Below, piece by piece: positions 10,637 to 42,652 of a DNA stretch of 47,580 nt. The notes beneath the pieces were generated by a model. The model ran no database searches. It had not been told where the DNA came from and saw only the letters and a program-made list of their open reading frames with translations. This stretch comes from a bacterium (GTDB taxonomy: Bacteria; Patescibacteriota; Gracilibacteria; Peribacterales; Peribacteraceae): contig JAQCIJ010000005.1 in the NCBI GenBank assembly GCA_027592135.1, positions 1 through 47,580 of the forward strand, written 5' to 3'. Position 1 is the stretch's first letter. The number at the start of each line of letters is the position of its first letter. The translations under genes were made by a program, and so were the position numbers.

Positions 10637-10790
10637 AGCCGGGATATGGTACGTAGGTTGTGGCTGCTTCTCAAGTGATTTATTGAAGAAAGCGAAGAAA
10701 GCGAGGATCCTCGCTCTCCTCGCCATATTCTCACTCTTCGTCCTACTGTAGTAGTAAAAATGCCTAAATTATGCTAGAATAGTATGATTC

Positions 10791-11990
10791 ATGCGTAAAT
10801 TCATATCATCAGCGTTTGTCGGCATTCTCACTCTTGCTCCAGTGCTGACACCCTTGGGGGCAGCCCAAGAACCCATCACCTATGTTCGACGTGCAGAAGC
10901 TGCAATGATTTTAATGAAGAATGCGGGCATCACCGTAGATGAAAGGGCGCAAACATATGGCGACTACCCCGACATGATAGATGGGCAGTGGTATGTCCCT
11001 TATATGCTGACAGGTATAGAAATTGGATTATTTGCTGCAAATACAGAAACAGGGTTTGCCTATCCACATAAATCTGTTTCGCGTGCGGAGTTTCTCGAAA
11101 TGCTGACAAAGACGTTCCTTCTCACCACCAATATCCCCTATCAATATACAGATATTCCCATAGGGGCTCCGTATAGTGCATATATTGGACTCTCATGGCG
11201 CTATAAACTATTCCACAGCACAAACAATCCCAGCGTGTTACAACCAAATCTCAAGGTCTCTCATAAAGAGGCAGCAGAAGCGATTTACACACTACTGACT
11301 GCAGAACCCTCTCTGCAACTAAAACCGGGAATGTTTCCTGTCAAAGAACACTTTTCTGCCCCGCAAGATCCGCGGTCTTCTCTATTTGAAAACATAACAA
11401 TCGCTGCTGTAAACAGTTACACGGATATCGCGACACCAAAAACGGTAAAATCTGCTGTCTTACGTCTGATTCGCTCTCGCGGAAATTTGGCAGAGCAAAC
11501 ACGCAATGATTTGATCCATGCTATAAACAAAGAGCGTGCAAAATATAAACTGACGCCAATGCGCAGTAACTACTACCTCGAACTCTCTGCACAACGCCAT
11601 GCAAAAGATATGGCAATTCGTGGATACTTTAGCCACTACACACCCGAAGGCTTAAGTTATGTCGATCGCATTCGTAGTGGTGGGTACCTCGATATTAATC
11701 CAGACTCCTGTAGTTGTGCACAACAGTTTGACCTTGGTGGAGAATCACAAGTAGAGCAACAGGGTCCAGACTTTGTCTTAACCGGACAACAGTCCTGTAG
11801 CTGCGAACCTATTTTCTCACTGGGAGAAAACCTCGCAAAAGGACAACTCTCCGTAAAACAAGTGATGAAAGACTGGATGAATTCCTCAAACCATCGACGT
11901 AATATTTTGCGGCCAGAGTTTGAAGAAATTGGTATCGGACTGTTCGAAGATGAATGGGTGCAGAATTTTGGAAGACTAAAGTTTGAGTAA
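10791..11990 (+). CDS. Secreted protein with N-terminal SLH-like region and C-terminal CAP (SCP/PR1) domain
   Basis: Signal peptide; YVRRAEAAMILMKNAGI... SVSRAEFLEMLTKTF; CAP motifs NKERAKYKLTPM, SAQRHAKDMAIRGYFSHYTPEG, GENLAKGQ, SSNHRRNILRPEFEEIGIG. Confidence 0.88.
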   Translation: MRKFISSAFVGILTLAPVLTPLGAAQEPITYVRRAEAAMILMKNAGITVDERAQTYGDYPDMIDGQWYVPYMLTGIEIGLFAANTETGFAYPHKSVSRAEFLEMLTKTFLLTTNIPYQYTDIPIGAPYSAYIGLSWRYKLFHSTNNPSVLQPNLKVSHKEAAEAIYTLLTAEPSLQLKPGMFPVKEHFSAPQDPRSSLFENITIAAVNSYTDIATPKTVKSAVLRLIRSRGNLAEQTRNDLIHAINKERAKYKLTPMRSNYYLELSAQRHAKDMAIRGYFSHYTPEGLSYVDRIRSGGYLDINPDSCSCAQQFDLGGESQVEQQGPDFVLTGQQSCSCEPIFSLGENLAKGQLSVKQVMKDWMNSSNHRRNILRPEFEEIGIGLFEDEWVQNFGRLKFE

Positions 11991-12020
11991 AGGGTCAAGC
12001 GAAAAACTACGTAGTGAAGT

Positions 12021-12533
12021 TTACACAATTGCCGCCAACATCTTCCCAAATTCTTCGGCGGCGGCAGGACCATTTCCCGTTACTATTTTTCCATCGATGG
12101 TTACCGCTTCTCCGGTGTACTCAGCCCCATAGGTTTCGAGTATTTCTTGCTGTCCCCCGTCTTCGTTCCAAACTGTTGCACGTTTACCAGAAAGAACCCG
12201 TGCTTTGGCGAGTATTGTCGGTGCAATGCAAATCGCACCGAGTGGCACTTCTGCTCTGTAGGCATCGTTTGCCACCTTAAGTGCATCAGGATCTGAGGCC
12301 AGCAGTACTGCCCCTGGGCCTCCAATAAAGGCAATGTGCCTGTAGTCTGTTACCTTCACGTCTTTAAGAGCGATAGTCGCTTCTTCTTTACCACCGAAAC
12401 TCCCTGTGCACTGCCCCACGTCTTTTGCCCCTATAACTATCTCGTTTCCGGCTTCTTCAAGCCCTTTGCGCGTACCTGCGTACTCTGCGTCTTGATAGCC
12501 GCTGTGGGCAAGGATTATGAGGGATTTGGGCAT
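12021..12533 (-). CDS. DJ-1/PfpI-family protein
   Basis: IAFIGGPGAVLLASDPDALKVANDAYRAEVPLGAICIAPTILAKARVLSGKRATVWN. Confidence 0.88.
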   Translation of the reverse strand: MPKSLIILAHSGYQDAEYAGTRKGLEEAGNEIVIGAKDVGQCTGSFGGKEEATIALKDVKVTDYRHIAFIGGPGAVLLASDPDALKVANDAYRAEVPLGAICIAPTILAKARVLSGKRATVWNEDGGQQEILETYGAEYTGEAVTIDGKIVTGNGPAAAEEFGKMLAAIV

Positions 12534-12548
12534 GTAAAGCAGAGAATA

Positions 12549-13202
12549 TTAGCTTTTCCTAAGCCCTCCATCACGACCAATGTCTGCCTTGCTTACTTGC
12601 GTGATTTCTACTTTCTCCAGCTCTGGAGTGTCTTGCAAGCCAAGATCTTTGTTCGACCTTCCTCCTACAGACTGAGCGACGTTTCGTGACTTATCTTCTG
12701 CAGTTGTTACTTCTGTTCCTGCAATTCTCATCAATGCTTTCATGATACATTGAGCGTTTACCAACTTGTTCGTAGTTCCGTAACGCTTACTTAAAACATT
12801 TCTAATACCTGCGTGTTCTAGCACAACACGTAGTGCACCTCCTGCGATGATACCTGTACCTTCGCGAGCAGGAATAAGACGGATACGCGCTGCTTTAAAT
12901 TTGTGGTCAATCTCGTGTGGGATACTCCCATCAGCGACAGGCACTTTTATCATGTTACGCTTTGCAACAGATGATGCTTTTTGTACGGCAGCCTGTACTT
13001 CGTTTGCCTTACCAGTCCCCAAGCCCACACGTCCTTTCTTGTCTCCAACAACGACAACAGCGCGGAATCGCATGCGACGTCCTCCAGCTACCACACGGGT
13101 AACTCTATCGATAGAGAGTGTTGTCTCTTCGAAATCAGAAGGCTCTTTTCGCTTTTTGCGATCACGCTGCTTGCGGTCTGGCTTGGAGGTTTTTGGATTC
13201 AT
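12549..13202 (-). CDS. rpsE: 30S ribosomal protein S5
   Basis: IDRVTRVVAGGRRMRFRAVVVVGDKKGRVGLGTGKANEVQAAVQKA; IPAREGTGIIAGGALRVVLEHAGI. Confidence 0.98.
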   Translation of the reverse strand: MNPKTSKPDRKQRDRKKRKEPSDFEETTLSIDRVTRVVAGGRRMRFRAVVVVGDKKGRVGLGTGKANEVQAAVQKASSVAKRNMIKVPVADGSIPHEIDHKFKAARIRLIPAREGTGIIAGGALRVVLEHAGIRNVLSKRYGTTNKLVNAQCIMKALMRIAGTEVTTAEDKSRNVAQSVGGRSNKDLGLQDTPELEKVEITQVSKADIGRDGGLRKS

Positions 13203-13206
13203 GGAG

Positions 13207-13234
13207 AAGTGGAAAACGGAAAGTGGAAAGTGGA
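13207..13234. repeat. AAGTGGA heptamer x4 filling the rplR-rpsE spacer
   Basis: AAGTGGA AAACGGA AAGTGGA AAGTGGA. Confidence 0.92.
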
Positions 13235-13240
13235 TAAAGA

Positions 13241-13588
13241 TTAAAACGTCAATCCTGCATCACGAGCTGCATCTGCTACTGCTTTTACACGTCCGTGGTA
13301 TCTGTAGGAATTTCGGTCAAATACGATAGTAGAGATCTTCTTGTCCTTTGCCTTGGCAGCGATAGCTTCACCAAGCTTTATAGCTCCGTCGATGTTGGCT
13401 GTTTTTTTAAGCTCTTTTGTAGAAGCTGCAACCAATGTCTTTCCGCTTTCGTCGTCAATAAGCTGTGCAGAAATCTGCATCAGAGAACGAAAGATAGACA
13501 GGCGTGGACGTGCAGCAGTACCAGAGACTTTTGCGCGTACTCTGCGCTTTCTTGCTAGCCGATTCTGATGCTTTATAGGAGCTTTCAT
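13241..13588 (-). CDS. rplR: 50S ribosomal protein L18
   Basis: [48 protein letters not shown]. Confidence 0.97.
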
Positions 13589-13599
13589 ACTGTAGATTG

Positions 13600-14151
13600 T
13601 TATTTGGCGGAACCAGCAGATTTACCAGATTTACGGATAATCACCTCATCGGTGTACTTTACACCTTTGCCTTTGTATGGCTCTGGTGGACGGAAACTGC
13701 GGATGTCGGCAGCTGCCTGACCCACGTCTTCTTTGCTAATCCCTTTAATAATAAGGATCTGCTTATTTTTTTCATCTTGTGAAATATCAATTCCTTCTGG
13801 CGCTGCGTACTCGATTGGATGACTGTGTCCAAGGTTGAGTGTTACGGTTTTTCCTTTTGCTTGCGCCTTGTAACCCACTCCGATGATCTCAAGCTTCTTC
13901 TCGTATCCCTCAGATACACCAATAACCATGTTGTTAATCATCTGACGTGTAAGACCATGACGAGCCATGCTATCTGCAGAATCATTTATGCGACCAACAA
14001 TCACCATAGAGCCCTCAACCTTTACCGTTACCTCAGGAAGATGAGCATAGGAAAGCTCCCCTTTTGGTCCTTTTACGACAATGATGTTAGCGGTAACCTC
14101 GACGGTTACGCCTCCTGGGATCGCCACTGGATTTTTTCCAATTCGAGACAT
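13600..14151 (-). CDS. rplF: 50S ribosomal protein L6
   Basis: [60 protein letters not shown]. Confidence 0.98.
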
Positions 14152-14153
14152 GA

Positions 14154-14552
14154 TTAGCTAATGGTACAAAGAACTTCTCCACCGACTTTTTTCTCACGAG
14201 CTTGGCCGTCTGTTAGTAAGCCCTGGCTGGTGGTAAGAACGGCGATACCGTATCCACGAAGCACAGGCTTAAGGTCTGCAACACCTGCATAGGTGCGACG
14301 ACCAGGCTTGGAGGCTCGTGTGAGAGTGAGAGTCATTTTTTCTGGATTGAACGTTACTTCGAGTGAAAGCTTTGGCGCTTCTCCGAGTACTTCTACTCCA
14401 GAGATCCATCCCTCTTTTTTGAGGAGCTCAAGAAGCTGTAGTTTCATTTTACTGTGTGGGGCAGTACAACTTGCTTTGCCCGCTTTCTGCGCATTGCGCA
14501 TGCGAGTAAGCAAATCGCCGATGGGGTCTGTTACGTATGTCATAATTACCAA
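14154..14552 (-). CDS. rpsH: 30S ribosomal protein S8
   Basis: [72 protein letters not shown]. Confidence 0.97.
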
Positions 14553-14770
14553 GAAGATTTAGTTATACCAGGGATATCACCATTCGTTGCCGCTTCGCGG
14601 AAGCAAATACGACAGACTCCAAAGAATCTCATGAATCCGTGACGGCGACCACAAAGGTTGCATCGGTTGTAAATACGCGTAGGAAACTTCGGCGTTCGTC
14701 CTGCCGCTTTGTCGCGAAGGAACTTGTTCATACTTGCCTTTTGCTTATTCTTTAGTGCGAGTCGAGCCAT
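14546..14770 (-). CDS. rpsN: 30S ribosomal protein S14 (zinc-binding form)
   Basis: [10 protein letters not shown]... [41 protein letters not shown]; internal start. Confidence 0.96.
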
Positions 14771-14771
14771 A

Positions 14772-15479
14772 TTAAGATTCTGGTTGGGAAGTTGCGGCAG
14801 TATCGGTTGTTTCGTCTGTAGATTCAACCATTTCTTTAGAGGTTTCAGATGTAACAGCAGTCTCAGAGGTGTCCTGCTTTTCTCCCTCTGCACCTTCTAC
14901 AGCCTTTGTAACCTCTTTTTTCTTCTCCTCCTTCTCCTTCCTAAACGGCATTCCCATTTCGGTAAACAGTGCACGTCCTTCTTTATCGTTACTTGCTGTT
15001 GTTGTAATCACAATCTGCAAAGGGAAGATTTGGCTTGGATCTGGAGCAGGTACTTCTGGGAAAATCGAGTGGTCACGAAGGCCAATACTGTAGTTTCCGT
15101 TTCCATCAAGCTTGCTTGGAAGACCACGGAAGTCGCGAATACGAGGGATCGAGTAGCTCATTAACCTATCGAGGAACTCCTCCATTTGCTTACCACGGAG
15201 TGTAACGCGGCAACCAACAATCATTCCTTGACGAGTTTTAAAGTTAGAGATAGCGACCCGAGCATGAGTGAATACAGGCTTTTGACCAGTGATCAATCTG
15301 ATGCTCTCTGCGATATATGCGTGCATTTCCTTGCTGTCCATTTTGGACTTGTTGATTCCAACGTTTACCGTCACTTTCTCTACTTGAGGAAGTGCGTGCT
15401 TATTTTTGATACCGAGCCTCTTGCTAACACCTGCAGCAATAGGTCCGCGGAGCCGATCATGGAGGGTTGCGTAAGCCAT
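14772..15479 (-). CDS. rplE: 50S ribosomal protein L5 with S/T/E-rich C-terminal extension
   Basis: [41 protein letters not shown]; ~50-residue tail. Confidence 0.97.
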
Positions 15480-15482
15480 AAC

Positions 15483-16055
15483 CTAAGTGCCTCGTTGGGA
15501 ACCTCGTGAAGATGAACGTTCTTGTTGATCTGGTACGGAGTGATCTTCTTTCATGTGAGATACAGAATCCATTTCTGCACCTGCAGCGCTCATTTCTTCT
15601 GATCCAAATCCCATCTTTTTCCAGAATGGAGATTTTTGGGAGGTGGCAGAAGTCTCAGATGGAGCAGATGTTTTTGCACCCTTCTCGCTCTTCTTCTCAG
15701 CAGCCTCCATGACCTTTGCATCAGATCCCTTCTTCTTCGCGATAGTGGTCTTTTTAATTTCGTCACCGCTCTGCTTAAAAATACGCGTCTTCTTTCCTTT
15801 TTCGAGCTTAAAGCCAATACGACTGCGCTTCTTTGTCTTTGGATCAACAAGCATTACGTTGCTTGCATCAAGAGATGCTTCATATTTTACAATTTCACCA
15901 GGACGATTTGGCCCTGCTTTCATGTGGCGTGTTCGAATATTTATATCCGTAACTACAAGACGATTTTTGGTGTGTAGCACACGGAGAACCTGACCGGTTT
16001 TCCCCTTATCCTTGCCTGTAATGACTACGACGCTATCGCCGGCACGGATCTTCAC
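15483..16055 (-). CDS. rplX: 50S ribosomal protein L24 with ~80-aa C-terminal extension
   Basis: [59 protein letters not shown]. Confidence 0.96.
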
Positions 16056-16420
16056 AGTACGTCTGGGGCAAGAGATACAATTTTTTGGAATCCTTTTCCA
16101 CGGAGTTCACGAGCAACCGGACCGAATACTCTCGTACCCTTCGGTTGTCCATCTTTAGAAACAATAACGCATGCGTTATCGTCGAAGCGGATACCGCTAC
16201 CATCTTTGCGGCGTGTCATCTTTTTGGTTCGGACAATAACAGCACGCTCTACCGCCTTCTTCTTTACCATTCCGCGTGGAGCTGCAGATTTAACAGCAAT
16301 AACTACGATATCACCTACTCCTGCGTAGCGACGCTTACTTCCGCCAAGTACTTTGATACACTGGACGATTTTTGCGCCAGTATTATCAGCCACGTTCATG
16401 AGAGTTTCTGTCTGGATCAT
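16052..16420 (-). CDS. rplN: 50S ribosomal protein L14
   Basis: [44 protein letters not shown] overlap with rpsQ stop. Confidence 0.98.
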
Positions 16421-16788
16421 TCTTGAGAAGTGGTAGAGGTTTCAGAGGAATCAGATGTGTCAGAAGTGCTCTTTTTTTCTGCATCTGCACCAGTTTTCTC
16501 ACGGTGAATCACCTTATCTATAGCTTCATCGTCTTTCATTTCTGATACACGTGGAGCTGCTTTAATAATTTCGATAACTTTGAAGTGCTTGTTTTTTGAG
16601 AGTGGCTTGCACTCTTCTATTACCACCTTATCTCCTTCGTAGAGATCCATACCGTTTGTATCACACAGGAACTTCTTACTCTTCCTATATCTCTTTTTGT
16701 AAATAGGGTGGAACACAAGCCTGTGCGTAACCACGCTTACCGTGCCCGTCATTTTTGCCGATGTGATGACTCCTTTTTTGGTTCTCAT
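16417..16788 (-). CDS. rpsQ: 30S ribosomal protein S17 with S/T-rich tail
   Basis: [43 protein letters not shown]; tail [17 protein letters not shown]. Confidence 0.95.
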
Positions 16789-17033
16789 GATGCTTTAGCG
16801 GGGGCAACTTCTACCTTTTTGGCTTCAGTTGGCAGGGAGGATACAGGGGAATATACAGTTTTCATACGAGCAAGTTGCTTTTTTTCTCGGATGTACTTTG
16901 CACTATCCTTCTCTTTGCCGAGCTTTACACCGAGTCGCAACTTTACGACTGTGTTCTGTTGCGCAATGATCTCCTTGCGGAGGTCTTCTGCGCTCATTTT
17001 TCGTAGCTCTTTGATGGTAGTGAGAGAAGACAT
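16785..17033 (-). CDS. rpmC: 50S ribosomal protein L29
   Basis: IKELRKMSAEDLRKEIIAQQNTVVKLRLGVKLGKEKDSAKYIREKKQLARMKTV. Confidence 0.94.
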   Translation of the reverse strand: MSSLTTIKELRKMSAEDLRKEIIAQQNTVVKLRLGVKLGKEKDSAKYIREKKQLARMKTVYSPVSSLPTEAKKVEVAPAKAS

Positions 17034-17452
17034 TAGTGGGCAATTTTGGTTACAACTTTCGTCTTCATTGGAAGCTTGTGGCTTGCAAGGCGAAGTGCCT
17101 CACGTGCATCAGCTTCTGGAAGACCATCCATTTCGAATATGATTGTTCCAGCTTTTAATACACATCCCCAGTACTCGATACTTCCTTTACCAGATCCCAT
17201 CGGTACTTCTGCAGCTTTCTTTGTTACTGGGTTATGTGGGAACACGCGAATCCACATCTTTCCTCCACGAGCTACACTACGGGTCATCGCTCTACGTGCA
17301 GCTTCGATCTGCCTCGCCGTAAGCTCACCTGTCACCGTGCACTTTAGTCCGATAGAACCAAATGCGAGCTGGGTACCCTTTGTCGCCTTACCCTTCCACT
17401 GTCCGCGGCGGCGCTGTACCTTCCTGTATTTGATTTTCTTCGGTTCTAACAT
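17033..17452 (-). CDS. rplP: 50S ribosomal protein L16
   Basis: RKVQRRRGQWKGKATKGTQLAFGSIGLKCTVTGELTARQIEAARRAMTR. Confidence 0.98.
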   Translation of the reverse strand: MLEPKKIKYRKVQRRRGQWKGKATKGTQLAFGSIGLKCTVTGELTARQIEAARRAMTRSVARGGKMWIRVFPHNPVTKKAAEVPMGSGKGSIEYWGCVLKAGTIIFEMDGLPEADAREALRLASHKLPMKTKVVTKIAH

Positions 17453-17453
17453 G

Positions 17454-18128
17454 TTACTGATTGTTCAGGGAAGTAAGACCTGCAGACTGTGCCTGCTTAA
17501 TTTTTTTAAATACCATTCCTTTGTAGATCCATACCTTTACACCAATCGTACCGTAGGTAGTTAAAGCAGCTTTACGTGCGAAAAATACATTTGCACGAAG
17601 GGTCTGCAAAGGAATGTTACCTTCTTTGAAAGTTTCTGATCGAGCAATCTCTGCACCGTTTAGTCTTCCAGAAATTTTGATCTTAATTCCGAGTGCTCCA
17701 GATTGCATTGCTTTCTCGATAGCCATCTTTGATGCTCTTCGATATGGCATGCGACGCTGAATTTGCCCTTGGATTGTTTCGGCGATTACGTGTGCATCTG
17801 CATCTGGGTTACGGATCTCTTGGATATTTACATCAAATGATCCGCCAAATTGCTTTTCGAGATCTTTGCGAAGTTGTTCGATAGAAGCACCCTGCTTACC
17901 TATAATCACACCAGGCTTGCTCGAATGAATGGCAACAGATGTGCGCTTACTTCGATCGATATCTATTTGGGAGATTCCTGCATCAGGAAGCTTATTGTTA
18001 ATATATCTTTTGATAAGCATATCCTGCAAAAATAACTCTTTAAACTTCTTTCCTTGTGCAAACCACGTACTAGACCACGTGTGCGTAATCTTGAGACGGA
18101 AGCCGTTGGGATTAACTTTTTGACCCAT
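17454..18128 (-). CDS. rpsC: 30S ribosomal protein S3
   Basis: MGQKVNPNGFRLKITHTWSSTWFAQGKKF; KH domain KPGVIIGKQGASIEQLRKDLEK. Confidence 0.98.
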   Translation of the reverse strand: MGQKVNPNGFRLKITHTWSSTWFAQGKKFKELFLQDMLIKRYINNKLPDAGISQIDIDRSKRTSVAIHSSKPGVIIGKQGASIEQLRKDLEKQFGGSFDVNIQEIRNPDADAHVIAETIQGQIQRRMPYRRASKMAIEKAMQSGALGIKIKISGRLNGAEIARSETFKEGNIPLQTLRANVFFARKAALTTYGTIGVKVWIYKGMVFKKIKQAQSAGLTSLNNQ

Positions 18129-18136
18129 ACTTTAGA

Positions 18137-18194
18137 AGTGGATAGTGGACCAGCCGACGCCAAGGCTATGGCCGGCAAGTAGTGGATAGTGGAT
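18137..18194. repeat. AGTGGAT heptamer pairs flanking a GC-rich core in the rplV-rpsC spacer
   Basis: AGTGGAT AGTGGAC (18137-18150) and AGTGGAT AGTGGAT (18181-18194). Confidence 0.9.
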
Positions 18195-22591: not shown

Positions 22592-22710
22592 AGCACAGAG
22601 TATATCAAAGAAGTTGTGTCAGAGGTTCTTGACTTTTTGCCTACCAAAAGCGGAGAATAACCTAACGGTCTTTTGTTTCGTAGTGTCTAACCAGAAGAGG
22701 AGGAACTCTT

Positions 22711-23249: not shown

Positions 23250-23285
23250 GCGTCGCAGTATATCATCAGATATACTAAAAGTTCA
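23250..23285. promoter_or_regulatory. Compact divergent promoter with back-to-back -10 boxes
   Basis: 36-bp intergenic: minus TATACT at 23257-23262 and plus TATACT at 23271-23276, within AGTATAT-CATCAG-ATATACT. Confidence 0.6.
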
Positions 23286-25831: not shown

Positions 25832-25837
25832 TATAAT
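25832..25837 (+). promoter_or_regulatory. Extended -10 box TGCTATAAT, 6 nt before ATG
   Basis: TTTTGCTATAATCAACACATG. Confidence 0.6.
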
Positions 25838-25843: not shown

Positions 25844-26443
25844 ATGACTGATCTTCTTCTCCTCGAACACGCCGACTACGGACACTTACTCCCAGCAGCC
25901 CATGGCCTTCTGGAAGAACACACCGATGCCACCAAAGCGCATCTCGTGGCTACAGGAGCCGCAATGGAAGCGCTCGCTAAGAAATTCGGCGGTAACGAGC
26001 AAACATGGAAAGTTGCGGGCATGCTGCATGATTTGGATTGGGATGCACTCGATAAAGATTACGAAAAACACTGTGGCGATACACTGGAACATTTACTTAG
26101 TACTATCGAAGCTCCCGCAGAGTTACTTGGTGATATTCGTGCACACTACCAACACCAGTATGGTGCGGAGTACCCGCTCGATTCCACGCTACGAAAATGT
26201 TTGTACTGCGTTGATGAACTCACAGGTTTTATTATTGCAGTAACCCTTGTACGACCGAGCAAAGCTATCGCGGATGTCGAAGTGAAAAGTGTGAAAAAGA
26301 AGCTCAAAGACAAAGGGTTTGCAGCGCAAGTAGACCGCGAGCAGATTCGTGCGTGCGAAGAGTTACTGGATCTTCCTTTGGATGAGCTGATCGACATTAC
26401 ACTGACAGCAATGAAGAGCGTTGCGAGTGATCTTGATCTATAA
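25844..26443 (+). CDS. HD-domain phosphohydrolase-like protein
   Basis: HLVATGAAMEALAKKFGGNEQTWKVAGMLHDLDWD; YCVDELTGFI. Confidence 0.82.
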   Translation: MTDLLLLEHADYGHLLPAAHGLLEEHTDATKAHLVATGAAMEALAKKFGGNEQTWKVAGMLHDLDWDALDKDYEKHCGDTLEHLLSTIEAPAELLGDIRAHYQHQYGAEYPLDSTLRKCLYCVDELTGFIIAVTLVRPSKAIADVEVKSVKKKLKDKGFAAQVDREQIRACEELLDLPLDELIDITLTAMKSVASDLDL

Positions 26444-26452
26444 TGCTTCCCT

Positions 26453-30095: not shown

Positions 30096-30866
30096 TTATC
30101 GACGTACTGCAGTAAAAGTATTCCACTCTTCTTTAGGGTCTGACCATAAAATATCAACATGGTGGGTAGGCTCTAGAAGCCGTGTAATTTCTGTACGCGC
30201 GATTTCAAAATGCCACTCTCCACGTATTTCGTTAATCTTCTCTAAAAAATGTAGCGCTGCAAATTCTCTGAATATATTCACCTCACATCCTTCAACATCT
30301 ATCTTGAGCAGATCAATATGGTCAATGGCATTTTCTTGCAGAAAATCAGAAACAGAAATTCCTTCTGCCCATCTATGTGAGCCATCGCGAATGCGATCTT
30401 CTAATGCTGGCCTCAGTTTGCCAAAATCTGTGTGCGTTACTACTTCGACCGATGGATCTCCCAAATGTCCTAGCATTCCTTTTCTCGTGACAGAAATATT
30501 AGGGTACTCTTCGACATTCTTATCAAGAGACTGGGCAATCGCCCTAGCAAATGGGCCACAGATATGTTCGTTTCTCATCACCTCCAGACAATAGATGTTT
30601 GCCTCTGGCCATGCATGTGCACACATTCTGGTAAATGTTCCAATGTGTGCGCCTATATCCACAATAATCTTGGGTGAAAATCCACTCCTCTTCAGTGCTT
30701 GAACACCATAACAATCCTGTTGAATCACTTCGTTTACCACTCCTCTGTAGTGCTGCTCTCTCCGTGACTCCTCTCCAATCCAGATTTCCCCTATAGAAGT
30801 TGAATACGTGCTAATCTCTGCAGATTCTTTGTATCTTTGGCCGCGCATAGTTTGAAGAAGTGGCAT
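30096..30866 (-). CDS. FkbM-family methyltransferase
   Basis: PKIIVDIGAHIGTFTRMCAHAWPEANIYCLEVM; IDLLKIDVEGCEVNIFREF. Confidence 0.88.
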   Translation of the reverse strand: MPLLQTMRGQRYKESAEISTYSTSIGEIWIGEESRREQHYRGVVNEVIQQDCYGVQALKRSGFSPKIIVDIGAHIGTFTRMCAHAWPEANIYCLEVMRNEHICGPFARAIAQSLDKNVEEYPNISVTRKGMLGHLGDPSVEVVTHTDFGKLRPALEDRIRDGSHRWAEGISVSDFLQENAIDHIDLLKIDVEGCEVNIFREFAALHFLEKINEIRGEWHFEIARTEITRLLEPTHHVDILWSDPKEEWNTFTAVRR

Positions 30867-30993: not shown

Positions 30994-31770
30994 TTATGTA
31001 CGTCGAGTAGCTTTGAACAAATTCCAGTTTTCACTAGGTTTGGTCCATGTTATATCTAGATGATGAGTGGGGGTGAGTAGTCTTTCTAGTTCTGCCCTTG
31101 CGATGGAAAAGTGCCATTCTCCACGGATTTCGTTGATGTTTTTCATCCATCCCATTGCCACAAGTTCACGGAAGATATTTATCTCAGATCCTTCTACATC
31201 TATCTTGAGAAAATCGATAGAGGTAATGTTTTGCGAATCAATAAAATCGGCAACAGAGGTCGCCTCAGCCCAGCGATGTGTATTAGAGCGTATACTATCT
31301 TCGAGTACGAGATGGGGCTTCTCAAAATCATGCCCATAAACGACATCAGCATGTAGGTTTCCATATTGTCCTAAGAGGGCTTTGTGTAACACTGTAACAT
31401 TTGGCAATCCACTAGTATTTGCATCGAGGCTACGTGCTATCGCACGTGCAAATGGACCACAGAGATGATCATCCTTCATAACTTCCAGTGTGTAGATCTT
31501 CGCTTCGGGCCACGTATGAGCTGCATAGCATGTAAAAGAACCTATATGACCACCAATATCTACAATTGTTTTTGGCTCTAGGCCTTTGTCTTTTAGTAAT
31601 TGAACATCGTAACAATCATTTGTTATCACTTCATGTACTACTCCACAATAGTGCTCCAAACGAATAGGTTCCGCACCGATACATATATCGCCAATGTGTG
31701 TGTGACAGGGTTGAATATCATTGGATTCAATATACCGTGGAGCCAGTGTTTTTGATGACTTGAAAAGCAT
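30994..31770 (-). CDS. FkbM-family methyltransferase, paralog of 30096..30866
   Basis: PKTIVDIGGHIGSFTCYAAHTWPEAKIYTLEVMKDDHLCGPFARAIARSLD; IDFLKIDVEGSEINIFREL. Confidence 0.88.
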   Translation of the reverse strand: MLFKSSKTLAPRYIESNDIQPCHTHIGDICIGAEPIRLEHYCGVVHEVITNDCYDVQLLKDKGLEPKTIVDIGGHIGSFTCYAAHTWPEAKIYTLEVMKDDHLCGPFARAIARSLDANTSGLPNVTVLHKALLGQYGNLHADVVYGHDFEKPHLVLEDSIRSNTHRWAEATSVADFIDSQNITSIDFLKIDVEGSEINIFRELVAMGWMKNINEIRGEWHFSIARAELERLLTPTHHLDITWTKPSENWNLFKATRRT

Positions 31771-34196: not shown

Positions 34197-35789
34197 TTAG
34201 GGAGTAGGATCTTCAAGATACCATACTTCAAATGCATCAATATATTGATGATCTATAATCGAAGAACGCTGTATTTTTTCATATGGTTTTTCATTACGAC
34301 TACCATCCCGTTTATCTGCATCTATCACTGAAAGTGGGCCTACAGATCTAGTGTCCTTATCCACAAATCTGAGATCATTTGGCCCAAATATCACGACGAA
34401 TTTGTGTAACGACAAGGCTTGTTCTTCATATTCAGGGTAGTGCACACGGGAACGATACGGCGAAATGGCATTCTGCTCTCCCATGAGAAACATCATAGCG
34501 TATGATGTCCAATAATCGCTAAATCCTCCGTGAACATCGTGCTCTTGCATGAATGCATGAATGGCAGCAGCAGTGTGCGACGGTACAAATATATTTCTCG
34601 GAAGCACTGACTGACGTATGACTTTACTATTGGGTATGGATAACGACATGACCAAGGCAAGAATGACCGATATACCAAAATACGACCATCTGCGTACGAT
34701 ATTCAGAAGCCCTAGCGCAATGAGCACAGACAAGGATGGCAAAGCCATAAGAGCGTATCGAGCTTGTCCAGGATTCACAGCTGGACGGAAAAATAATGCA
34801 ATACAGAAGAGGAGTGCTGGTAGTAGAAATATATATACAGCGATCTCTTTTTCTCCTAAGGACATCGTCTGGAAGGGTGCTACACACTCTTTGCGGTTTT
34901 CATAAAAAAATACCAACAGCGCTAGGAGGAGAATGCCACATGAGACCCACCAAAGAAAAGCATACCCATAGATCGGCCTAACACCGAGAAGGGTTGGCAA
35001 AACAAGAGTAAAAGTACTCCAGAGAGAGTCAAAGCTCGGTAGTAATACTCCGTGCACTTGAGAGAAAGGTCGAGCAGAGGAAGACAAGATGCCAATAAGA
35101 AGTGGCAGCGATCCAACCACACACCCTAGTAGTAACACGCCCAATTGCTTGCAGATCAATTGCCATTTTGCCTTCGAGAACAAGAGGAGAGTAACAACCG
35201 TTACGAGAAATATAGAGCTTGTAATCATGACCCAAAGGTTCAACCCCAATAAAACTCCAACGATACACAACCGTAGCACATAGTCTTTTTTATTCTGCAT
35301 TAGTGTACCTGTCACAAGAAGAAGGGACACTGCAGCCAATGGCATAGATATACTGTAATGAACAAAAAAACCCAGATCCATAAAGAAGTAATTTGGCAAT
35401 GCAAGAATCAGTAAAGAAAGTACAGCCACAGATCTACCCCAGAGTCTTTGTACTAAGAGTGTATGGACAATCAATGTAAGGAAGATACTTAAGAGAAAGG
35501 GTGCATAGAGAGCCAAGACGTTACTCTGCCCGAACAGAAATAGGAAAGGTACTGCTGCAAAAGCGTATGCACTAGAAACGTATGAAACAGGAAAAGAAAA
35601 GAGTTGAAGTTTGCCGTGCATCATTCGCACTGCGTCTAGACCAAAGATCGCCTTATCGGAATTGAATCCTACAGCTTCTGGATACAAGAAATATACTTGA
35701 GCACCACATGCTGCAAGCACCAAGACTACTACAAGTAGTGCAAATAGTTTTCCTTGGAGCCATAAAGGTGTCGGATATCCTTTTCGCAT
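34197..35789 (-). CDS. Polytopic glycosyltransferase (GT39/PMT-like)
   Basis: 530 aa, many TM segments; NSDKAIFGLDAVRMMHGKLQLFSFPVSYVSSAYAF N-terminal loop. Confidence 0.7.
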   Translation of the reverse strand: MRKGYPTPLWLQGKLFALLVVVLVLAACGAQVYFLYPEAVGFNSDKAIFGLDAVRMMHGKLQLFSFPVSYVSSAYAFAAVPFLFLFGQSNVLALYAPFLLSIFLTLIVHTLLVQRLWGRSVAVLSLLILALPNYFFMDLGFFVHYSISMPLAAVSLLLVTGTLMQNKKDYVLRLCIVGVLLGLNLWVMITSSIFLVTVVTLLLFSKAKWQLICKQLGVLLLGCVVGSLPLLIGILSSSARPFSQVHGVLLPSFDSLWSTFTLVLPTLLGVRPIYGYAFLWWVSCGILLLALLVFFYENRKECVAPFQTMSLGEKEIAVYIFLLPALLFCIALFFRPAVNPGQARYALMALPSLSVLIALGLLNIVRRWSYFGISVILALVMSLSIPNSKVIRQSVLPRNIFVPSHTAAAIHAFMQEHDVHGGFSDYWTSYAMMFLMGEQNAISPYRSRVHYPEYEEQALSLHKFVVIFGPNDLRFVDKDTRSVGPLSVIDADKRDGSRNEKPYEKIQRSSIIDHQYIDAFEVWYLEDPTP

Positions 35790-35819
35790 ATGTAGGTAAT
35801 ACTGTATAACATTCTAAGT
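35790..35819. promoter_or_regulatory. 30-bp divergent promoter region
   Basis: Minus TATTAC (35796-35801) 6 nt from ATG; plus TATAAC (35805-35810) 9 nt from ATG. Confidence 0.45.
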
Positions 35820-36581
35820 ATGCACCATACTTGCAACTCTATGCGAATGAAGACTCAAAACAAATTGCACCCAGTACTAACGTTAGTACTCCCCTGCTAC
35901 AACGAAGGAGAGCACTTTGCAGGTAGTATGAAAAATATACTCAATACCCTCTCGTTGTTGAATATAGCATGTGAGATCATCCTCATAGATGACTGTAGTA
36001 CAGACACAACTCCAGATCTCCTCAAGGTATTTCAGAAAGAATCCCATACCATACCTATATACGTTATATATCACACAAAGAATCAAGGACGTGGTGCTAC
36101 TGTTGAGGAAGGCTTGCAGTTAGCGAAGGGGAGTATAGTAGGTTTTATGGATATAGACTGTGAAGTCAGCCCTACCTATATACCAGAAGCATTGAAGGTA
36201 TTGCAGGATGACTCTGTAGACTTTGTTCTTGCTCAACGTCTTTACAGCTTACAGTGGTACAACATTCATCGCGCTATAATGACTACTCTCTATCATTTAC
36301 TCGTACGACTGATCCTTCGTATTCCTTCTTTTGATACTGAGGCAGGATTCAAGTTCTTTCGACGTGATAGCATCCTTCCTATCCTTGCACACACACAAGA
36401 CCGACACTGGTTCTGGGACACGGAAATCGTCGTGCGTGTGTATGATGCAGGACTGAAGATCTACAATATGCCTGTAAGATTTAAGCGAAACCCTAACAAA
36501 ACGAGCACCGTTCGATTCATGCGAGATTCTTGGCGCTCTCTGAAGGCACTACTACACTTCCATCGCTACCGTGAAATATGA
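35820..36581 (+). CDS. Glycosyltransferase family 2 (dolichyl-phosphate-mannose synthase-like)
   Basis: LTLVLPCYNEGEHFAGSMKNIL; IILIDDCSTDTTPDLL; NQGRGATVEEGLQLAKGSIVGFMDID. Confidence 0.9.
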   Translation: MHHTCNSMRMKTQNKLHPVLTLVLPCYNEGEHFAGSMKNILNTLSLLNIACEIILIDDCSTDTTPDLLKVFQKESHTIPIYVIYHTKNQGRGATVEEGLQLAKGSIVGFMDIDCEVSPTYIPEALKVLQDDSVDFVLAQRLYSLQWYNIHRAIMTTLYHLLVRLILRIPSFDTEAGFKFFRRDSILPILAHTQDRHWFWDTEIVVRVYDAGLKIYNMPVRFKRNPNKTSTVRFMRDSWRSLKALLHFHRYREI

Positions 36582-36626
36582 TCGTACGTATTTGGTGTAC
36601 CTGCCATACATACAAGGCACACATCA

Positions 36627-37397
36627 TTACCGTATCGCCGTTGCAACAATGAGGCAACTAGAACCAAAAGATATACGGCTACCTGCGCAAATCTTGCGCC
36701 GCTCATTTTGCAGCATTTTTTTTAACATGATATTTTTTGAGAGATAGTCTTCTTGTTTTGCTTTAGGTTTCCATCCAAATACCGATGGAATTGTACGTAG
36801 ACTCATGATAGGCAATGGTAACATCGAAAAGAAGTAGGTTGCGTAGTCTATGGAAAACCCCGCTCGTTCCAGTACATCTTGTAATGATAACAATGTATAG
36901 CGTCGCTTGTGTCCTGCACGAAGATCTTCATACGACCAAAGCCAACGCATGGCTGGTACTGTAATATACAGTTTGCCATTTGGCTTGAGCCCTCTGTGTA
37001 GACACGTAAGGAATTCCTCATCATTGTCTATATGTTCAAGTACATCCAGTAAGCACACGGACCCCATGGAAGACTGTTGAATATCTGCGTCTTCAAAACG
37101 TGATTGTATGATGCTACGCACACCACGTTCTCTTGCATATTTACCCCCCTGTATATCTGGCTCTACGAGAACACTTTCTACACCTGCACGCTGTGCAGTA
37201 AAAGCAAAATACCCATTGCCACCACCAATATCATACATAGGCTCGGAAGGCGGATACTGTTGGAATAGATCTAAAAGTACATTTGCACGATGCTGAAACC
37301 AATAGGAGTCGTCTTCTACTGATCGAAAAAATACAGTGCCGTCCACAGGGTAGGAAACTGATGTATTATGCTTTTTCATAGTGAGCAATAGCAGCAT
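36627..37397 (-). CDS. Class I SAM-dependent methyltransferase
   Basis: MYDIGGGNGYFAFTAQRAGVESVLVEPD; VCLLDVLEHIDNDEEFL; start probably MKKHNTS at ~37379. Confidence 0.85.
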   Translation of the reverse strand: MLLLLTMKKHNTSVSYPVDGTVFFRSVEDDSYWFQHRANVLLDLFQQYPPSEPMYDIGGGNGYFAFTAQRAGVESVLVEPDIQGGKYARERGVRSIIQSRFEDADIQQSSMGSVCLLDVLEHIDNDEEFLTCLHRGLKPNGKLYITVPAMRWLWSYEDLRAGHKRRYTLLSLQDVLERAGFSIDYATYFFSMLPLPIMSLRTIPSVFGWKPKAKQEDYLSKNIMLKKMLQNERRKICAGSRISFGSSCLIVATAIR

Positions 37398-38589
37398 CTA
37401 CATTATGTGCTGTCTTAACAGTTTGGAAGAAGCTTTGTATAGCATCCACAACTCTTTCTAGATCTTCTTCCATTAATCCTGCATGGCAGGGAAGACGTAA
37501 AAGTTTCACATATGTACCTTCTGTAACGGGAAGATCCCCTTGCTTACTACCTAGCATCTTGCCCACTTCCGATTCATGCAATGGCATAAAATGAAATGCA
37601 GACGCAATGCCTTGCTCATCTAGGTATTTCGATAAAGCATCTCGCTCCTCATGCGATGAAAGTATGATGTAGAAGATGTATCCATTGTGGTCACAGCCAA
37701 GGGGGACAGATGGGAGACTAAAGCCGTGTTCTTGTGCTAGAGCTTCTAGATGATGCAAGTAATATGACCAGATCTGTCGGTGAGCATCTACCCTCTTTTG
37801 TATTCCCTGTAATTGTGCAAAAAGTACTGCGGCACTCATTGCTGATGGAGCAAAAGACGATCCAATATCTTTCCACTCATAATAGGAACATTCCCCACGG
37901 CGAAATGCTGCACGATTGGTTCCTTTTTCTAGAAGTATCTCCGCTCTTTCTATCAAATGTGGTTCATTGATGAAGATCGCACCTCCTTCTCCACAACTAA
38001 TGAGTTTCGTTGCGTGAAAACTTAGGCATCCTAACGTACCCATCGTTCCAAGTGCCTTTCCATGATACTGAGAATGACATGCATGTGCTGCATCTTCAAT
38101 GATTTGAAGATCATGCGCTTTGGCTATTTCTAAAATACGGTTCATCTCACAAGAAACACCAGCATAGTGCATTGGCACTATGGCTCGAGTTTGAGCCGTG
38201 CAAAGTGAAGCCACATGCTTTGTATCTAGGTTCATGGTATCGGCTCGTATATCTGCAAAAACAGGCTTTGCACCGCAACGCATAAATGCATTTGCGGTTG
38301 AAGGATGTGTGAATGACGGCATGATGACCTCGTCCCCTTCTTCTAGCCCACAAAGAAGGGCTGCTAGCTCCAATGCTCCGGTGCACGAGTGTGTTAGCAA
38401 AACCTTAGAAACACCGTAGCTTTCCTCAAACCATTTTTCGCATATGTGTACCATTGCTGAATCCCCACCCCAGTCTCCACTCTTGAGTACCTGTGATACC
38501 AATGCTTCTTCTGCACCGAAAGTACAAGGCTCGTGGAGTTGAATTGGTTTCATGCCTTCAGCATATCTCTTTCGTATAGTATATATCAA
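37366..38589 (-). CDS. DegT/DnrJ/EryC1 (WecE-like) sugar aminotransferase
   Basis: LTHSCTGALELAALL; EEGDEVIMPSFTHPSTANAF; IIEDAAHACHSQYHGKALGTMGTLGCLSFHATKLISCGEGGAI. Confidence 0.92.
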   Translation of the reverse strand: MIYTIRKRYAEGMKPIQLHEPCTFGAEEALVSQVLKSGDWGGDSAMVHICEKWFEESYGVSKVLLTHSCTGALELAALLCGLEEGDEVIMPSFTHPSTANAFMRCGAKPVFADIRADTMNLDTKHVASLCTAQTRAIVPMHYAGVSCEMNRILEIAKAHDLQIIEDAAHACHSQYHGKALGTMGTLGCLSFHATKLISCGEGGAIFINEPHLIERAEILLEKGTNRAAFRRGECSYYEWKDIGSSFAPSAMSAAVLFAQLQGIQKRVDAHRQIWSYYLHHLEALAQEHGFSLPSVPLGCDHNGYIFYIILSSHEERDALSKYLDEQGIASAFHFMPLHESEVGKMLGSKQGDLPVTEGTYVKLLRLPCHAGLMEEDLERVVDAIQSFFQTVKTAHNVDAAIAHYEKA

Positions 38590-38619
38590 TTTCTTTCTCT
38601 GAGATGATGGGTGCCAACT

Positions 38620-39363
38620 TTACACGCTCTTCTTTACTGCTTTTACGATCCACATTGTTGTCCACACAGACTGTATCTCTTCGCATTGAAAATTTTCTGA
38701 CTCCAGCAAACTCTCAAGAGAACTTCGTGTATAGATGTTGCGAATAGGTGGCAGATGAAATACATATTTTTTTATAGCATTTCCAAATCGTGTTCGTAAG
38801 CATGAAAATACGGATGGGTTTTTAGGAATGGTACATATGATGTGACCTTCATCTTTTAGAACCCTCCAGCACTCTGAAAGAACCTTCCTTGGTTCATCTA
38901 CATAGTCCAGAAGTCCCATACTTATAACCCAATCAAATTCTTGATCTTGAAATGGTACGCGCATTGCATCTCCAACATGCACGTCCCATTTACTCTCATC
39001 AATAGAGCGCAATTCGTCTTTTGCAAGGGCAATCATTTTTTCTGAATAGTCGATGCCCGTTACATGATTGCACTGAGGAATACATAATTTCATATGTACC
39101 CCAGAGCCACATCCAACATCAAGAAGCTTGTCGCATTTTTGAAGAGAGCACATATCCTGTAGTATCTTTGTGCGTTTGTGTAAAAATTGAAACACAATGA
39201 ATTTAGGTGAAAGATATGCATGTCTAGCATACAAGCCTGCAAAATCATCTGCCCTTCTTTTCCAGTAATCTTTCATATTTTTACTGTCTACTATCTTCAT
39301 AGAGTGCATTGTACACGATGGTTCATATCTCAAAAATATCTCATTCAGAGAACTAGATTTCAA
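38620..39363 (-). CDS. Class I SAM-dependent methyltransferase
   Basis: LLDVGCGSGVHMKLCIPQCNHVTGIDYSEKMIALAKDEL; true start may be an internal Met. Confidence 0.87.
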   Translation of the reverse strand: MKSSSLNEIFLRYEPSCTMHSMKIVDSKNMKDYWKRRADDFAGLYARHAYLSPKFIVFQFLHKRTKILQDMCSLQKCDKLLDVGCGSGVHMKLCIPQCNHVTGIDYSEKMIALAKDELRSIDESKWDVHVGDAMRVPFQDQEFDWVISMGLLDYVDEPRKVLSECWRVLKDEGHIICTIPKNPSVFSCLRTRFGNAIKKYVFHLPPIRNIYTRSSLESLLESENFQCEEIQSVWTTMWIVKAVKKSV

Positions 39364-40750
39364 TCACCTCATCTCTCTCTGGCATCAGAACTTCGATGTC
39401 TTTATTTGCAGCTATAACGCGTTCTTTGAGTGGAAGCATTTGCTCTTCTTCTCCGTGTACAAGAATCAGTTTTTTTACACCCTCTGTATCCTTGATAAAG
39501 CTATCGAGATCGACCATATCTGCATGACCTGAATATGCATTGATGTATACCGTCTCTGCTTTTTTCTGATACATCTTGTCGAAGATTTTTACCTCAGTCA
39601 CCTCAGGGTCGATAATACTGCGACCCAATGTATTCTTCGCCATGTATCCCACGGCAAGAATGGTGTTTCGCTCATCTTCTATTTCATTTTTTAAGTGATG
39701 TCGCACGCGTCCCGCTTCGCACATTCCGCTTCCAGCCATAATAATCATCGGGCCAGGAGTTCCATTTATCTCCTTACTTTCTTCGACGCTATCTGTGTAT
39801 TTTACGAGTGAGAAATGGAATGGGTTGTGTGCTTTTGCGAGGAAGTTTTCGTACATGGCTTTGTCGTAACATTCAGGGTGCTTCATAAACACTTCGGTGA
39901 CTTTTGTGGCCAGTGGTGAATCGATAACAATTGGAATAGCCGGAATATCTTTGGCATCCCATAACACATGGAGGTCGTACACAATTTCTTGTGTGCGCTC
40001 TAAAGAGAACGCAGGGATGATTACTTTTCCTCCGCGCTTCGCTGTGCGAATAATGACATCTTTGAGATCTTTTTTTGCACTCTCGATACCACCGTGTTCA
40101 CGGTTTCCGTACGTACTTTCACAGATCAGCACTTCTACCGGAGGCATTTTTGCCGGGTCACGGATAATCGGCAACATGCTTCGTCCGAGGTCTCCACTAA
40201 ATCCTATATTTCTCGTGACGCCATTTTCTACAATTTCCAATACCACCATTGCAGCACCAATAATGTGTCCTGCATCGAGAAACTTTGCCTTTACCCCTTC
40301 GCATACGTCGAACCATTCGTTGTAGTTTTCTCCTTCGAAGTTCTCGAGACAGTTTTCAACATCTTCGATGGTATAGAGTGGTCCATCACACTGCATCATA
40401 GATTTTGCAAGATACTTACAAAAATACTCCTCGTCTTTTGTGTTGATGAATGCACTATCTGCAAGCATCACAGCAGCGAGATCTTTTGTAGCGTATGTAC
40501 AGTGAATCGGAGCTTTAAATCCTTTTTTACTGAGGAGTGGGACACGTCCAACGTGATCTGCGTGTGCGTGGGATAAGATCATCGCATCGATCGTACTTGG
40601 ATCGAAAGGAAACTCTGCATTCTTTACCGCAGACTCCTGTCTGTGACCTTGGAATAGACCGCAGTCCAAAAGGATCTTTTTACCGTTTACCTGAATTTCG
40701 TGGCAGCTCCCTGTTACCTCTCGGGCTGCTCCATGGGGGATTATTTTCAT
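39353..40750 (-). CDS. MBL-fold beta-CASP RNase-like metallo-hydrolase
   Basis: DAMILSHAHADHVGRVPLL; IGFSGDLGR; GGKVIIPAFSLERTQEIVYDL; SGMCEAGRVRHHL; ILVHGEEEQM. Confidence 0.93.
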   Translation of the reverse strand: MKIIPHGAAREVTGSCHEIQVNGKKILLDCGLFQGHRQESAVKNAEFPFDPSTIDAMILSHAHADHVGRVPLLSKKGFKAPIHCTYATKDLAAVMLADSAFINTKDEEYFCKYLAKSMMQCDGPLYTIEDVENCLENFEGENYNEWFDVCEGVKAKFLDAGHIIGAAMVVLEIVENGVTRNIGFSGDLGRSMLPIIRDPAKMPPVEVLICESTYGNREHGGIESAKKDLKDVIIRTAKRGGKVIIPAFSLERTQEIVYDLHVLWDAKDIPAIPIVIDSPLATKVTEVFMKHPECYDKAMYENFLAKAHNPFHFSLVKYTDSVEESKEINGTPGPMIIMAGSGMCEAGRVRHHLKNEIEDERNTILAVGYMAKNTLGRSIIDPEVTEVKIFDKMYQKKAETVYINAYSGHADMVDLDSFIKDTEGVKKLILVHGEEEQMLPLKERVIAANKDIEVLMPERDEVIEI

Positions 40751-40769
40751 AAGGTCAGTATATAATAGA

Positions 40770-40796
40770 AGGTGCAGAGGGTACAGAAGGTGCAGA
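40770..40796. repeat. AGGTGCAGA nonamer x3
   Basis: AGGTGCAGA GGGTACAGA AGGTGCAGA, between the beta-CASP and CAP genes. Confidence 0.85.
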
Positions 40797-40870
40797 TGTT
40801 ATATCTTGATACCTAAAAACAGGAATATTATCACTGCATTAAGCCAATAATCGTCTATACTCTGACTGAG

Positions 40871-41632
40871 ATGATCAAAAAGACCATTGCCCCTTTTATG
40901 ACTTTAACTACAGCTATCCTTAGTACTGTAGTTGCTCTAAGTATACCCACTCCTCAAGTACATGCCAGTGCCCATAGCCTAGAAGAACATGTGGCTGCAC
41001 GTCGTGCTAGTAGAAGTGTGGCACCTGTCTCGAATCGTATTATCCTTCAGAAAAGTACTTCCCGAACAACAACACAAGACCGAAGAAGTCAGCGACTCAA
41101 CCAGAGGCGTTTGCGCACAGTTTCGGTACCGAAAGCTCCTGTACGCACAACATCCCTCTCGAGTTTGCAGCGCAGGGAATCGCGTCGATCGAAGCGACTC
41201 GCCGGAAAGCCAGTCCCAGTAAAACAGCACGTAACTGATGGTGTAAATATGGAAAGAGCAAAACAAGGAATTGCCCCTCTTCGGTACCACACAGATCTAG
41301 AAACTGCAGCTCAAGCACACGCACAGGATATGAGTATTAAAGAATATTTCTCTCATGAGAATCTAGAGGGAGAGCGCAGTGGAGATCGTATTAAGAAGAC
41401 AGGGTACGGCGTAATAAATGCTCAAGAGTGTCGCTGCAGTTACAAAGTATTCCTTGCGGAAAACATCGCCAAAGGGCAAAGTAGTGTAGTGCAAGTTATC
41501 AAGGAATGGATGGAGTCATCTAGTCACCGAGAGGCAATGCTTTCTAAAGACTACCAAGAAATTGGTGTCGGTATTGTTGATGATATTTGGGTCTTGAACT
41601 TTGGGAGTGTGGATATTACACCAGGGCGATAG
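40871..41632 (+). CDS. Secreted CAP (SCP/PR1)-domain protein
   Basis: Signal peptide; VNMERAKQGIAPLRYHTDLETAAQAHAQDMSIKEYFSHENLEG; ENIAKGQSSVVQVIKEWMESSSHREAML. Confidence 0.9.
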   Translation: MIKKTIAPFMTLTTAILSTVVALSIPTPQVHASAHSLEEHVAARRASRSVAPVSNRIILQKSTSRTTTQDRRSQRLNQRRLRTVSVPKAPVRTTSLSSLQRRESRRSKRLAGKPVPVKQHVTDGVNMERAKQGIAPLRYHTDLETAAQAHAQDMSIKEYFSHENLEGERSGDRIKKTGYGVINAQECRCSYKVFLAENIAKGQSSVVQVIKEWMESSSHREAMLSKDYQEIGVGIVDDIWVLNFGSVDITPGR

Positions 41633-41674
41633 CAATGAAGCAAATCTGAAATGTTGAATAGATACTTCGTACAT

Positions 41675-41766
41675 TGTCTGGAACCATGATTTTCATGATG
41701 AAAGGATGTCCAGGATTGTAAAGAATCATGAAAATCCAATAATCCTTCGAATCATGGTTCCAGACA
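41675..41766. repeat. Palindromic MITE-like element in a convergent intergenic region
   Basis: Perfect 17-bp inverted repeat TGTCTGGAACCATGATT / AATCATGGTTCCAGACA plus nested 12-bp GATTTTCATGAT / ATCATGAAAATC. Confidence 0.85.
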
Positions 41767-41783
41767 GGGGGTGAGGAAAAATT

Positions 41784-42503
41784 TCACCCCTCCAAATCAA
41801 CAGACTTCAGTAGATCACTTTTTTCAGCATCTGTCAGCAATCGAAACTCGTTATCTTTCAACAGAGGACTGAGTGTCATAATGCGTGTACGCTCTAGAAA
41901 TCGCAGAGGTGCTCCGATCTTCTGACACATGCGACGAATCTGCCTGTTTTTCCCTTGAGTTAGGGCTATAGTAAATTTCTTATCGGTAATTTTTTTGATG
42001 ACTGCAGGCTTTGTTTTCTCTCCGTCAATCATCACACCATTTTGTAATTTTTCGAGCTGACGGTCTGTTATAGGATCTGTAGTTTCTACTGCGTATTCTT
42101 TTTCGTGATCAAACGATGGGTGTGTTAATCGATAGGCAAGTACGCCATCATTGGTAAATAAGAGCAGTCCTGATGTTTCTTTATCGAGCCTGCCGACTGG
42201 ATAGATTTTTCCTTGGAGATTTTTTGGTAGAAGATCGCGAACCGTGCGATCTGGATGGTCTGGATTATCGACATTACTGGTGATAATTCCTACAGGTTTA
42301 TTCATGAGGTAATAGAGCATTTCTGCGCGGTCTTCGAGAACCTGTCCATCCACTTCTATATTGTCGACTTCTGGATCTGCTTTTTGGCCAATCGTTGCCA
42401 CTTCACCATTAACCTTCACAAGTCCTGCTTCGATGTACTCCTCAGCTTTACGCCGAGAACAGATACCTTGGGCCGAGAGTATTTTTTGCAATCGTTCTTC
42501 CAT
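41784..42503 (-). CDS. Pseudouridine synthase, RsuA/RluB family
   Basis: EERLQKILSAQGICSRRKAEEYIEAGLVKVNGEVA; GRLDKETSGLLLFTNDG; KNRQIRRMCQ; start MEERLQ 9 nt after TATACT. Confidence 0.92.
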   Translation of the reverse strand: MEERLQKILSAQGICSRRKAEEYIEAGLVKVNGEVATIGQKADPEVDNIEVDGQVLEDRAEMLYYLMNKPVGIITSNVDNPDHPDRTVRDLLPKNLQGKIYPVGRLDKETSGLLLFTNDGVLAYRLTHPSFDHEKEYAVETTDPITDRQLEKLQNGVMIDGEKTKPAVIKKITDKKFTIALTQGKNRQIRRMCQKIGAPLRFLERTRIMTLSPLLKDNEFRLLTDAEKSDLLKSVDLEG

Positions 42504-42652
42504 AGGTTCCAGAGTATAGAGATGGATCACTTCTGAGAAGCATTTTGTGCAGAGAGGCCGAGTGGTAAACCGTACGCGTGGCATAGCGCATCAGTACACA
42601 GGGGGTAGGGCTCTCTGGATATAGCGTAGTGTATCGAATACATTTTTTATAC

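Follow-up and report, generated by a model that had tools for sequence, protein, structure and literature searches.

Why do so many genes in this stretch of Peribacteraceae DNA carry a promoter-like hexamer almost against the start codon, and how would their mRNAs be translated? The window (the whole 47,580-nucleotide stretch that was analyzed) belongs to a genome of 1.12 Mb (54 contigs, 98% complete) whose RpoA is 89-93% identical to that of Candidatus Peribacter MAGs, which places it among the Peribacteraceae of the Patescibacteria (CPR). Its left half is a ribosomal-protein/RpoA region and its right half holds genes for glycosyltransferases, methyltransferases, sulfotransferase-like and CAP-domain proteins. 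One CAP-domain gene, 10791-11990 (+), forms an opposite-strand insertion in the ribosomal-protein region, between 10196-10636 and 12021-12533, and its orthologues in relatives L003, L004 and L006 have the same start; in the right half, two adjoining FkbM-type methyltransferase genes of near-equal length, 30096-30866 and 30994-31770 (both -), look like a tandem duplication. Our answer is that in this genome sigma70-type promoters placed at the ATG very probably give rise to leaderless mRNAs, with Shine-Dalgarno (SD) sequences unused and the 16S anti-SD drifted.

An earlier sequence-only reading had proposed leaderless-type promoters from ten hexamers in the window. Taking the gap as the number of nucleotides between hexamer and start codon, we found all ten at the distances it gave; the list was correct but incomplete, as 7264, 12533 and 38553 are also boxed, and -10-like boxes at gap 6-9 precede 24195 (+), 31770 (-) and 33352 (-) as well. 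The principal sites are these, with three of the additions marked:

7273..7278 (-), -10 box TACACT with TG extension, gap 8 to ATG 7264; added here
8069..8074 (-), weak -10-like TAAGCT, gap 8 to ATG 8060; better boxes in orthologues
10775..10780 (+), -10 box TAGAAT with TG extension, gap 10 to ATG 10791, CAP-domain protein
12543..12548 (-), -10-like TATTCT, gap 9 to ATG 12533, DJ-1/PfpI; best conserved case; added here
22599..22604 (-), -10 box TATACT with TG extension, gap 7 to ATG 22591, nuclease-like SNase protein
23257..23262 (-), -10 box TATACT with TG extension, gap 7 to ATG 23249, DUF3307; -35 TTGAAC at 18 nt
23271..23276 (+), -10 box TATACT, gap 9 to ATG 23286, EamA transporter
25832..25837 (+), -10 box TATAAT with TG extension, gap 6 to ATG 25844
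26439..26444 (+), -10 box TATAAT, gap 8 to ATG 26453, glycosyltransferase
35805..35810 (+), TATAAC, gap 9 to ATG 35820, glycosyltransferase 2; start uncertain
38560..38565 (-), -10-like TATGCT, gap 6 to ATG 38553, DegT aminotransferase; -35 TTGATA at 18 nt; added here
40757..40762 (-), -10 box TATACT, gap 6 to ATG 40750, beta-CASP RNase-like
40856..40861 (+), -10 box TATACT, gap 9 to ATG 40871, CAP-domain protein
42513..42518 (-), -10 box TATACT, gap 9 to ATG 42503, pseudouridine synthase

The promoters of 23249 (-) and 23286 (+) lie in a common 36-bp divergent intergenic region, and the box of 26453 overlaps the 3' end of the preceding gene (25844-26443). Upstream of 10791, the same TGNTAGAAT occurs at gap 10 in L004, L003 and L006. 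The start at 42503 is supported by an S4 domain beginning at residue 3; that at 35820 is doubtful, since a caller guided by coding potential only places it 7 codons further on, at 35841. TATAMT at gap 6-10 precedes 8 of the 57 called window genes, against 0.35 in dinucleotide shuffles (P<=0.001). The boxed genes had been taken for the first genes of their transcripts, which is not clear for all of them: three have a same-strand gene before them, at a distance of 65 nt for 25844, 9 nt for 26453 and 340 nt for 22591.

The spacing recurs throughout the genome. We sampled 878 kb in stretches that include the window, with 684 genes whose starts were called by coding potential alone, leaving the upstream sequence unused. 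TATAMT counts at gaps 0 to 12 were 0, 1, 1, 1, 0, 0, 25, 13, 15, 6, 3, 3 and 1, with about 1.4 per position further up; the sequence-only reading had staked its case on a peak at -7 to -16, and a sharp one is present at gap 6-9. Counted per ATG at gap 5-11, the word has a frequency of 0.096 at gene starts and 0.0009-0.0014 at decoy ATGs inside genes. A TA-type -10-like signal about 10 bp before the start and above background, which defines the TA-led class of PMC3160421, is thus found here.

The word also has the surroundings of a promoter. An EM motif search with a flat start for position, run from a -10 seed and from a -35 seed, converged on one motif, and alignment of upstream sequences on the -10 brings out T, T and G at the -35 positions. 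TTG is enriched at 16-18 nt spacing, as promoter architecture requires, in the divergent, far and mid gene classes; it was not seen at this spacing in the small close class. Scanned with the E. coli -10 matrix, 48% of divergent genes have a match at gap 6-9; for decoy ATGs the figure is 4-7%. In gap-6 promoters the base at -1 is a pyrimidine in 96%, as it should be if transcripts begin with the A of the ATG; gap-7 promoters show more purines at -1 and more pyrimidines at -2, which suggests a leader of 0-1 nt. Both the mode at gap 6 and the near-empty gaps 0-5 would fit a transcription start about 7 nt after the -10. The closest divergent genes are only 20 nt apart here, whereas none in the E. 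coli sample are under 100 nt apart. Taken together, the position of the box, its spacing to the -35, the initiator base and conservation in orthologues lend strong support to leaderless-type promoters, from which the transcription starts themselves are predicted.

Could the TAYAMT word instead be a translation-start signal, an AT-rich ribosome-binding motif of the kind proposed for Bacteroides, and no promoter at all? It lies about 13 nt before starts and also precedes genes 5-20 nt behind another gene, both of which would suit such a motif. The -35 element 16-18 nt further up and the Y(-1)A(+1) initiator of gap-6 boxes would not, and the orthologues speak against it too. TANAMT at gap 6-10 was found in 12 of 21 orthologues of 12533 (0 in control windows), 13 of 37 of 8060 (0.5 in control windows) and 4 of 6 of 10791 (0-0.5 in control windows), and in none of 259 orthologues of the ribosomal-region genes 2711, 3142, 4638, 5284, 6108 and 14151. 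Stand-alone genes keep the box distance across Peribacteraceae and ribosomal-operon-internal genes, which should be most in need of translation signals, are box-free in all of these about 260 orthologues. The contrast favors a promoter over a signal for translation in general, and we consider the latter very unlikely. Co-occurrence of the box in orthologue pairs was significant for one genome (G046, P=0.014) and not for another (G027).

It is likewise highly improbable that the annotated starts lie too far upstream, in which case the promoters would be real, transcription would begin inside the called gene, and the mRNAs would be leadered. The starts are indeed computational calls, and two ways of defining them disagree for 209 of the 684 genes; however, the same sharp, ATG-locked peak emerges whether starts come from the promoter-blind caller or from the 5'-most ATG (56 TATAMT at gap 6-9 with the latter). 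Miscalls would blur it, and orthologues keep box and ATG together while the sequence above diverges. Boxes at gap 15-53, tested for miscalled starts behind them, gave three in frame and two out in what is a very small sample. Chance, by which AT-rich upstream sequence would yield TATA words anywhere, is a negligible explanation: upstream regions are indeed AT-richer than genes, but about 680 genes yield 59 TATAMT at gap 6-9 where dinucleotide shuffles yield 4.1 (sd 1.9), shifted windows and non-start intergenic ATGs lack the signal, and a much AT-richer genome of the same class (G034, 22% GC) has no near -10 peak.

We then asked what share of genes the promoters at the ATG would serve, using lower bounds based on E. 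coli matrices with non-start intergenic ATGs as decoys. A leaderless-type promoter precedes at least 43% of divergent genes, at least 44% of genes 20-80 nt behind a same-strand gene, at least 31% of those further away and at least 18% of those under 20 nt behind. Boxes stand before 14-17% of genes that overlap the upstream gene or lie within 5 nt of it, and, where the preceding same-strand gene is 5-60 nt away, before about 50%, as often as before divergent genes; in the classes used here, the box is therefore not limited to operon-first genes. The share of the tight class is partly inflated because the box of 14151, which we rejected, lies in sequence that encodes the conserved C-terminus of the preceding gene's product. 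We also discarded as inflated, in favor of the decoy-based bounds, an EM-based figure of 65-71% leaderless genes in every class. At the lower-bound level more than half of genes, many divergent ones included, are without a box. Between 15 and 45 nt upstream, too, strong promoter matches exceed background, indicating that leadered first genes exist. The proposal that leaderless initiation is the default for first genes was thus right in that these promoters are widespread and overstated in degree, the figure being nearer half (the 43% lower bound for divergent genes).

A contrast in SD use between operon-internal and first genes had also been suggested. It does not appear: SD words at gap 3-11 precede 3% of genes versus 6-8% in shifted windows, and no gene class is enriched, tight operon genes included (the close class is at or below background). 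Nor are words that fit the genome's changed 16S tail (AGGAA, AAGGA, GGAAG) enriched. The same pipeline behaved as expected on two controls, finding SD in 39% of E. coli genes and no near -10 peak, and, in D. radiodurans MP1, SD (31% overall, 44% for tight operon genes) together with near -10 boxes (11% overall, 23% for divergent genes). The sequence-only reading had missed the loss of SD and anti-SD and was incomplete in this respect.

The 16S 3' end of this genome reads GGAACACTTCCTTACC (core ACUUCC, without CCUCC) as against the usual GGATCACCTCCTT. We scored the family with a pattern in which two positions of the core could be C or T, and which matched 39 genomes and left 17 unmatched and unscored; the core is altered in 37 of the 39 scorable Peribacteraceae genomes (ACTTCC at 19 sites, ATCTCC at 12, ATTTCC at 9) and CCTCC is kept in 2. 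Across the class, a tail with CCTCC was matched in 20 of 60 genomes, none of them among the seven Peribacteraceae sampled. One genome, G070, has two 16S tails, ACTTCC and ATTTCC (G070:C11:80988 and G070:C14:33319), reflecting either two rRNA copies or contamination. Among translation factors, an ORF of 498 aa with four S1 domains and IF3 are both present in the source genome, and bS21 was not detected in it; loss of bS21 was rejected as a correlate, being patchy across the class whatever the tail.

Promoter position and spacing, their conservation, the absence of SD and the change of the anti-SD can be read from the DNA itself, and the following model would connect them. A large share of genes would have ordinary sigma70-type promoters (TTG -35, 16-18 nt spacer, TAYAMT -10) that direct RNA polymerase to begin at the A of the ATG or no more than about 3 nt from it. 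The resulting leaderless mRNAs would present a 5'-terminal AUG to ribosomes already carrying initiator tRNA, a route known for other bacterial leaderless mRNAs. At leadered and operon-internal genes, initiation would take place on sequence poor in G and devoid of SD, probably assisted by coupling to the immediately preceding gene. The anti-SD of the 16S would presumably have been free to drift once SD had fallen out of use.

Other families of the class only partly follow this pattern. The near -10 word peak is present in Peribacteraceae (G046 and G027) and in family f6 (G019, tail ACCGCC), weak in f18, where CCUCC is intact, and absent in f3, f5, f10 and f14. Changed tails accompany the peak in f1 and f6, intact CCUCC accompanies its absence in f3 and f5, and f10 and f14 have changed tails and no peak. 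A rule equating a changed anti-SD with leaderlessness was rejected on the strength of f10 and f14 on one side and f18 on the other. Under the combined -35/-10 score, some difference from their own decoys is seen in most of the families sampled and separation is less clean, so the between-family contrast rests on the word peak. No SD enrichment was found in f3, f5 or f18 (L192-L211, L222-L231) despite their intact CCUCC, which makes SD disuse wider than leaderlessness; SD disuse seems to precede, or to be independent of, anti-SD loss.

The same survey touched on the genetic code. UGA is known as a sense codon in Gracilibacteria/Absconditabacteria, and coding coverage in G032 (f10, L182-L191) and G034 (f14, L212-L221) is 3% with table 11 versus 66-83% with UGA as sense. 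In G019 (f6, L232-L241), where the anti-SD has become ACCGCC and the near -10 peak falls at gap 8, only 2 of 136 genes end in UGA; this genome is possibly on the way to UGA reassignment.

A bolder version of our reading holds that Peribacteraceae have abandoned SD pairing altogether. Starts would then be selected by the placement of the promoter next to the ATG, and the anti-SD would be a remnant still drifting; the absence of leaders would in turn account for the tight packing of genes, in which divergent neighbors stand 20-40 nt apart and -10 boxes run into the 3' end of the preceding gene. On this version we find ourselves evenly divided. If leaderless initiation at these promoters is confirmed, this would be a bacterial lineage where widespread leaderless initiation and SD/anti-SD loss occur together, and one could test within a single bacterial class (f1, f3, f5, f6, f10, f14) whether selection on the anti-SD is relaxed by leaderless genes. 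In practical terms, SD-seeking gene callers can assign wrong start codons in such genomes, for which a -10 box at gap 6-9 can serve as a marker of the start.

How does this arrangement compare with known systems? Leaderless bacterial genes are established, as the sequence-only reading had remarked: those with a TA signal make up around 20% in Actinobacteria and around 40% in Deinococcus-Thermus (PMC3160421). These groups share with our genome a TAnnnT-type -10 box about 10 bp before the start and a high gene share, but they keep SD for their other genes, and the SD of operon-internal genes (44% in D. radiodurans MP1) has no counterpart here, where SD is enriched in no class and the anti-SD is changed. 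Within the same lineage, Candidatus Peribacter riflensis is already known to be SD-scarce (7%) and without CCUCC (PMC10783764), and in both respects, SD not enriched and tail lacking CCUCC, our genome resembles it. That survey describes SD scarcity and tail loss, and no leaderless promoters for bacteria such as Peribacter; the present data add these and extend the tail change to most sampled Peribacteraceae. In the open literature searched, we found no statement on leaderless initiation in Peribacteria. The same survey ties leaderless mRNAs to CCUCC loss in archaea, and its Nanoarchaeia and Sulfolobus cases likewise combine leaderless starts with a relaxed anti-SD, but in another domain, with a different ribosome and initiation factors and with TATA/BRE promoters in place of the bacterial -35/-10 seen here. 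Bacteroidota such as Flavobacterium johnsoniae (PMC6847099) also lack SD and have G-poor sequence before internal-gene starts; their ribosomes, however, retain the anti-SD, and initiation on leadered mRNAs is tuned by mRNA structure and Kozak-like bases, whereas in Peribacteraceae the anti-SD is changed and the near -10 boxes imply that many genes would be without any leader. What appears to be new, judging from these predicted promoters and rRNA tails, is a single bacterial family that joins widespread leaderless-type promoters to the loss of both SD and anti-SD.
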